IMG/VR virus record: IMGVR_UViG_3300019886_000022
Coordinates: 1-25,130 of that record
Length of the DNA stretch: 25,130 bases
Source of the DNA: a virus
Strand: one strand, 5' to 3'
Part shown: one piece after another, positions 12,692 through 12,765 of the stretch
Numbering within the stretch: position 1 is the first letter of the stretch
Layout: each line of letters starts with the position of its first letter
Position numbers and translations under genes: made by a program
Notes under the pieces: generated by a model
Told to the model about the DNA's origin: nothing
The model's database searches: none
Seen by the model: only the letters and a program-made list of their open reading frames with translations

Positions 12692-12765
12692 TTGCGGGGG
12701 ACGGATTCGAACCGCCGACCTTCGGGTTATGAGCCCGACGAGCTACCAGGCTGCTCCACCCCGCA
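12692..12765 (-). tRNA. Initiator tRNA-fMet (CAT anticodon)
   Basis: A complete 74-base cloverleaf reads on the minus strand: acceptor TGCGGGG/CCCCGCA, D-arm GAGC/GCTC, anticodon arm TCGGG-CTCATAA-CCCGA, T-arm GGCGG-TTCGAAT-CCGTC, discriminator A. Two initiator hallmarks are present, the three consecutive G:C pairs at the foot of the anticodon stem and an A11:U24 pair. The usual bacterial C1xA72 mismatch is replaced by a weak U1:A72 pair. CCA is not encoded (only the first C follows). The gene lies inside the late operon between the capsid and a connector-cluster gene. Confidence 0.95.

Follow-up and report, generated by a model that had tools for sequence, protein, structure and literature searches.

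Organization of the late gene region

The window, i.e. the whole stretch of DNA analysed here, corresponds to an entire IMG/VR virus record (25,130 bases), and its gene assignments mark it as a fragment of a phage with a contractile tail. The recognised late genes are all borne by the minus strand and comprise those for terminase, portal, Mu-F-like head protein, protease, cement protein, major capsid protein, neck, sheath, tape measure and baseplate. Of note, the Mu-F-like head protein (15827-17329) exhibits an additional domain that matches Pfam InPase (PF18823) at residues 134-264. Around the major capsid gene, the following features are found, from upstream to downstream on the minus strand:

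13803..14336, minus strand: gene for a cement/virion structural protein (PF22758, phrog_563)
12806..13777, minus strand: major capsid protein gene (PF09950 Major_capside, phrog_264)
12771..12789, minus strand: hairpin GGGCGC-TGTGATG-GCGCCC between the capsid stop and the tRNA, no U-run (z -2.2 for the 40-nt stretch)
12692..12765, minus strand: initiator-type tRNA-Met(CAU), 74 nt, U1:A72, discriminator A73, no encoded CCA (ARAGORN, Rfam)
12679..12691, minus strand: 13-nt spacer CGAAGGAAAGCAG from the tRNA 3' end to the next ATG, with a Shine-Dalgarno-like AAGGA (read from the sequence)
11998..12678, minus strand: 226-aa gene downstream of the tRNA, with a weak tail-fibre-like domain at residues 81-160
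11631..11996, minus strand: gene for a 121-aa virion structural protein (phrog_302)

The tRNA lies on the coding strand of the late genes, as the first-pass annotation had it, even though plus-strand coordinates conceal this match. From the capsid stop (12806) to the ATG of the 226-aa gene (12678), the gap containing the tRNA spans 127 nt and is the widest in the terminase-to-neck stretch, where no other listed gap exceeds 87 nt; within it, the tRNA stands 40 nt from the capsid stop and, as originally stated, 13 nt from the next ATG. Regarding the neighbours, the upstream gene is indeed the major capsid gene, but the downstream gene, first presented as encoding a connector, is not recognisably so. 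No solved structure matching the 226-aa protein was found and its single-sequence fold reached a pLDDT of 30. In the interval 11900-13900, a scan that is blind to other phage promoter types revealed neither promoter-like nor terminator-like sites; since no such site separates it from its neighbours, the tRNA gene, which was rightly placed within the head operon from the outset, is most likely carried on the late mRNA.

Identity of the tRNA

ARAGORN called a single tRNA-Met(CAU) in the window (12765-12691, minus strand), and the covariance scan proposed with the first-pass annotation, once run, matched the Rfam family RF00005 at 12765-12692 with 65.7 bits. With an E-value of 1.9e-12 and every consensus stem formed, this tRNA cannot be put down to chance. 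All four stems are paired, namely TGCGGGG/CCCCGCA, GAGC/GCTC, TCGGG/CCCGA and GGCGG/CCGTC, and the minimum-energy fold of the whole 127-nt gap retains both the cloverleaf and the upstream hairpin. A reading frame running from 12791 through the tRNA, with a Shine-Dalgarno sequence, was dismissed as spurious, such frames being common over tRNA genes.

Initiator tRNAs are marked by A11:U24, by three G:C pairs beside the anticodon loop and by the loop CUCAUAA. These hallmarks are all present here, the G:C pairs being formed by G29-G31 with C39-C41, and the CAU anticodon is set within a complete cloverleaf as in a bacterial-type tRNA-fMet. At 1:72, the tRNA carries U1:A72 where a C1 x A72 mismatch is usual, either state being taken as that of an initiator. 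Among 4438 bacterial initiators, position 1:72 is paired in 1.4%, always as U1-A72, a pair nearly absent among elongators (3/5179, about 0.05%) (Ardell and Hou, PMC5143459). Considering U1:A72 as a defect was rejected, since the pair is natural in bacterial initiators according to both the genome scan reported below and the same survey (PMC5143459). As judged from its sequence, the gene encodes an intact initiator-type tRNA, which upholds its initial description as complete.

A scan for U1:A72 initiators across 84,980 species genomes returned at least 120 stretches with the same body, 80 of which were fetched; these come mostly from Acidobacteriota and some from Nitrospirota, a phylum share that describes this sample only. 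The nearest of the 80 differ from the phage tRNA at 4/74 positions with the stem pairs kept. While the bacterial U1:A72 initiators (Acidobacteriota, Nitrospirota and others) have a body like that of the phage tRNA, they differ from it by an encoded CCA (78/80 fetched), absent from the phage gene, and by A57 (80/80 fetched), where the phage tRNA has G57. No exact copy of the tRNA was found in the 84,980 species genomes, even when positions 1 and 72 were left free.

Initiator tRNAs in other phages

Phage tRNAs had been described at first as usually elongators grouped in clusters, a contrast that holds only partly as lone initiator tRNAs exist in other phages. Genes for tRNA-Met similar to that of the window occur in 363 phage records; in the eleven inspected, initiator-like tRNAs are found in clusters, beside an integrase gene, or alone after the terminase gene (three Bradleyvirinae), and initiator-type tRNAs recur across unrelated phages. 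The three Bradleyvirinae, Donnerlittchen, Elanor and IVIA-DoCa5, resemble the window in having a single tRNA-Met(CAU) whose stems and loop look like those of an initiator, borne by the strand of the packaging genes. However, they belong to another phage family, their tRNA encodes CCA, and it lies directly past the terminase large subunit gene, not the capsid gene, and is then followed by ribonucleotide reductase or hypothetical genes. The annotated tRNA-fMet of Caulobacter phage CcrSC shares U1:A72 with the window tRNA, but CcrSC is a jumbo phage in which this gene is one of three tRNA genes grouped amid hypothetical genes. Besides, 57 IMG/VR contigs harbour an initiator-type tRNA lacking CCA and with the same body pattern as the window tRNA; U1:A72 is present in none of them, and in no case was the tRNA observed behind a capsid gene of the window's family. 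Lone phage initiator tRNAs are already known, and the one in the window stands in an unusual place, the post-capsid position being found in no relative examined.

Within this set, two related contigs each carry a lone CCA-less initiator-type tRNA (L344, 6713-6785; L367, 3468-3540; numbering of the tRNA strand), located 13 and 19 nt, respectively, ahead of a same-strand gene for a lipoprotein-like coiled-coil protein, with a QueC-like gene upstream.

The post-capsid slot in capsid relatives

Searches with the capsid, the portal and the 226-aa protein singly, as well as with capsid plus terminase profiles, uncovered no close relative in any of the collections covered. These profiles led to about 110 viral loci carrying related capsid genes, at 22-35% capsid identity to the window and none above about 35%, which yielded 87 distinct slots separating the capsid gene from the gene that follows. 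The first-pass annotation had proposed a survey of related phages for the same position and had named its absence from relatives as counting against the proposal; in these distant relatives it is indeed absent, a tRNA being found in 0 of the 87 distinct slots.

Instead, a terminator-like hairpin occurs at most 110 nt past the capsid stop in 32 of the 87 distinct slots vs. 1.6 in shuffles, a count that includes hairpins whose U-run pairs with the stem and that expresses an enrichment rather than a probability, the rows being mutually related and the counts not independent. After five other late genes, such hairpins amount to 2/77, 4/55, 3/45, 3/47 and 0/29. The enrichment is seen in loci L120-L199 and other capsid relatives. 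In the relatives, a small gene (about 80-160 aa, motif PGxNxV) is also found after the capsid gene. This small gene was not found in the window, where the slot holds a hairpin without U-run plus the tRNA; the tRNA and the 226-aa gene occupy the place of the relatives' frequent hairpin and small gene. In another locus (L105, 7101-7250), the post-capsid gap, which contains a long hairpin, has a fold much more stable than that of shuffled sequence (z -6.75); the possibility that this gap is tRNA-like was discarded as it matched no Rfam family.

Proposed role: a working initiator, or another function

The arrangement can best be understood as that of a functional initiator tRNA freed by processing of the late mRNA, with the capsid mRNA cut off as a by-product, a reading to which a probability of about 0.52 can be given. 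Counting against it are the lack of the tRNA in the distant relatives and the missing CCA, which 78 of the 80 fetched bacterial U1:A72 initiators encode. The tRNA gene, having no promoter of its own, would be transcribed as part of the late mRNA of the head genes. This RNA would then be cut ahead of U1 by host RNase P, and past A73 by a nuclease of the RNase Z type; as CCA is not encoded, maturation would require an extra step, the end being finished by the CCA-adding enzyme. Once freed, the tRNA would be charged and formylated, and would join the initiator pool late in infection. As for the by-products, the capsid mRNA would end in the 3' hairpin GGGCGC/GCGCCC and the downstream mRNA would retain its Shine-Dalgarno sequence AAGGA. 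Cotranscription, processing, charging and any benefit are here what we infer from the layout. The suggestion that initiation capacity could be raised while virion proteins are made in bulk found no support, and the argument from GTG starts is weak, since the same initiator reads ATG and GTG.

The further suggestion that processing separates the capsid mRNA from a connector mRNA fares better in its first part, which receives indirect support from the terminator hairpins enriched in the same slot of the relatives, than in its second, the downstream gene not being recognisable as a connector. Pushed further, the mRNA boundary could be the primary function, with RNase P and 3' processing parting the abundant capsid mRNA from the downstream mRNA in the manner of the relatives' leaky terminator, and the initiator role being secondary. 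The post-capsid concentration of terminator-like hairpins (32/87 relatives vs. 1.6 shuffled, and 0-4 after other late genes) together with the hairpin lacking a U-run plus tRNA in the window would fit such a boundary element, but any tRNA would serve this purpose, no sign of selection for the cut is apparent, and the slot lacks a terminator in over half of the relatives, in rows that are related and counts that are non-independent; on balance, this explanation appears unlikely. Still more doubtful is a combination of both functions, where the tRNA would replace the relatives' terminator and its processing by host enzymes would determine how abundant capsid mRNA is relative to downstream mRNA, each cut freeing one initiator and so coupling capsid output to initiation supply.

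The tRNA could also be a functionless passenger that entered, perhaps with the 226-aa gene, a post-capsid spot tolerant to cargo. That this junction accepts cargo is indicated by a GIY-YIG-like frame (FIIYALVDPRTDAVRYIGKSS) directly past the capsid stop at 4900 in locus L127, and PEi21 has extra genes at the same post-capsid junction; the relatives' small gene being replaced in the window by the tRNA and the 226-aa gene, and the lack of a tRNA in the distant relatives, point the same way. Yet all the stems are intact, the initiator-specific positions are kept and no sign of decay is visible, so that a neutral passenger is deemed improbable, to the same degree as a boundary element. A defensive function is far less likely, namely the replacement of a host initiator tRNA destroyed or modified by toxins such as VapC. 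According to work cited in PMC10264068, host nucleases targeting initiator tRNA are known, and escape from them has been put forward as a role of phage tRNAs (PMC10264068); however, the anticodon stem-loop of the phage tRNA exactly matches that of many bacterial initiators, which leaves no escape mutation, and phages facing VapC-LT2 are reported generally to avoid encoding tRNA-fMet (PMC10264068). Finally, initiator tRNA genes are located at contig ends, apparently at integration sites, in other viral contigs such as L005, and the first-pass annotation had itself raised a degraded remnant of a host attachment site as the finding that would undo its proposal. Such an origin in a host tRNA gene is barely credible here and was rejected: the gene is a whole tRNA with all stems paired and not a 3' fragment, it has no encoded CCA, it is placed between head genes in the head operon, there is no integrase among the assigned genes of the window, and the search of species genomes gave no host copy of the whole tRNA.

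The reason for phages to carry tRNAs remains a matter of debate, and rare-codon compensation cannot account for one of the initiator type. A lone initiator within a late operon, at a slot where many relatives have a terminator-like hairpin, offers a simple case in this respect, where the roles of initiator supply and mRNA cutting are separable experimentally.

Host indication

The U1:A72 form of the tRNA gives a hint, from sequence comparison, that the host may belong to the Acidobacteriota or Nitrospirota. A capsid search in 396 Acidobacteriota genomes gave no match, which leaves this hint unaffected as the search had no positive control; in 296 genomes of the phylum of L265 (titled Nitrospirae), a similar search, also without positive control, gave one distant match. 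Beyond this phage, U1:A72 initiators appear common in Acidobacteriota (genome loci L200-L279) and this could aid the prediction of phage hosts.
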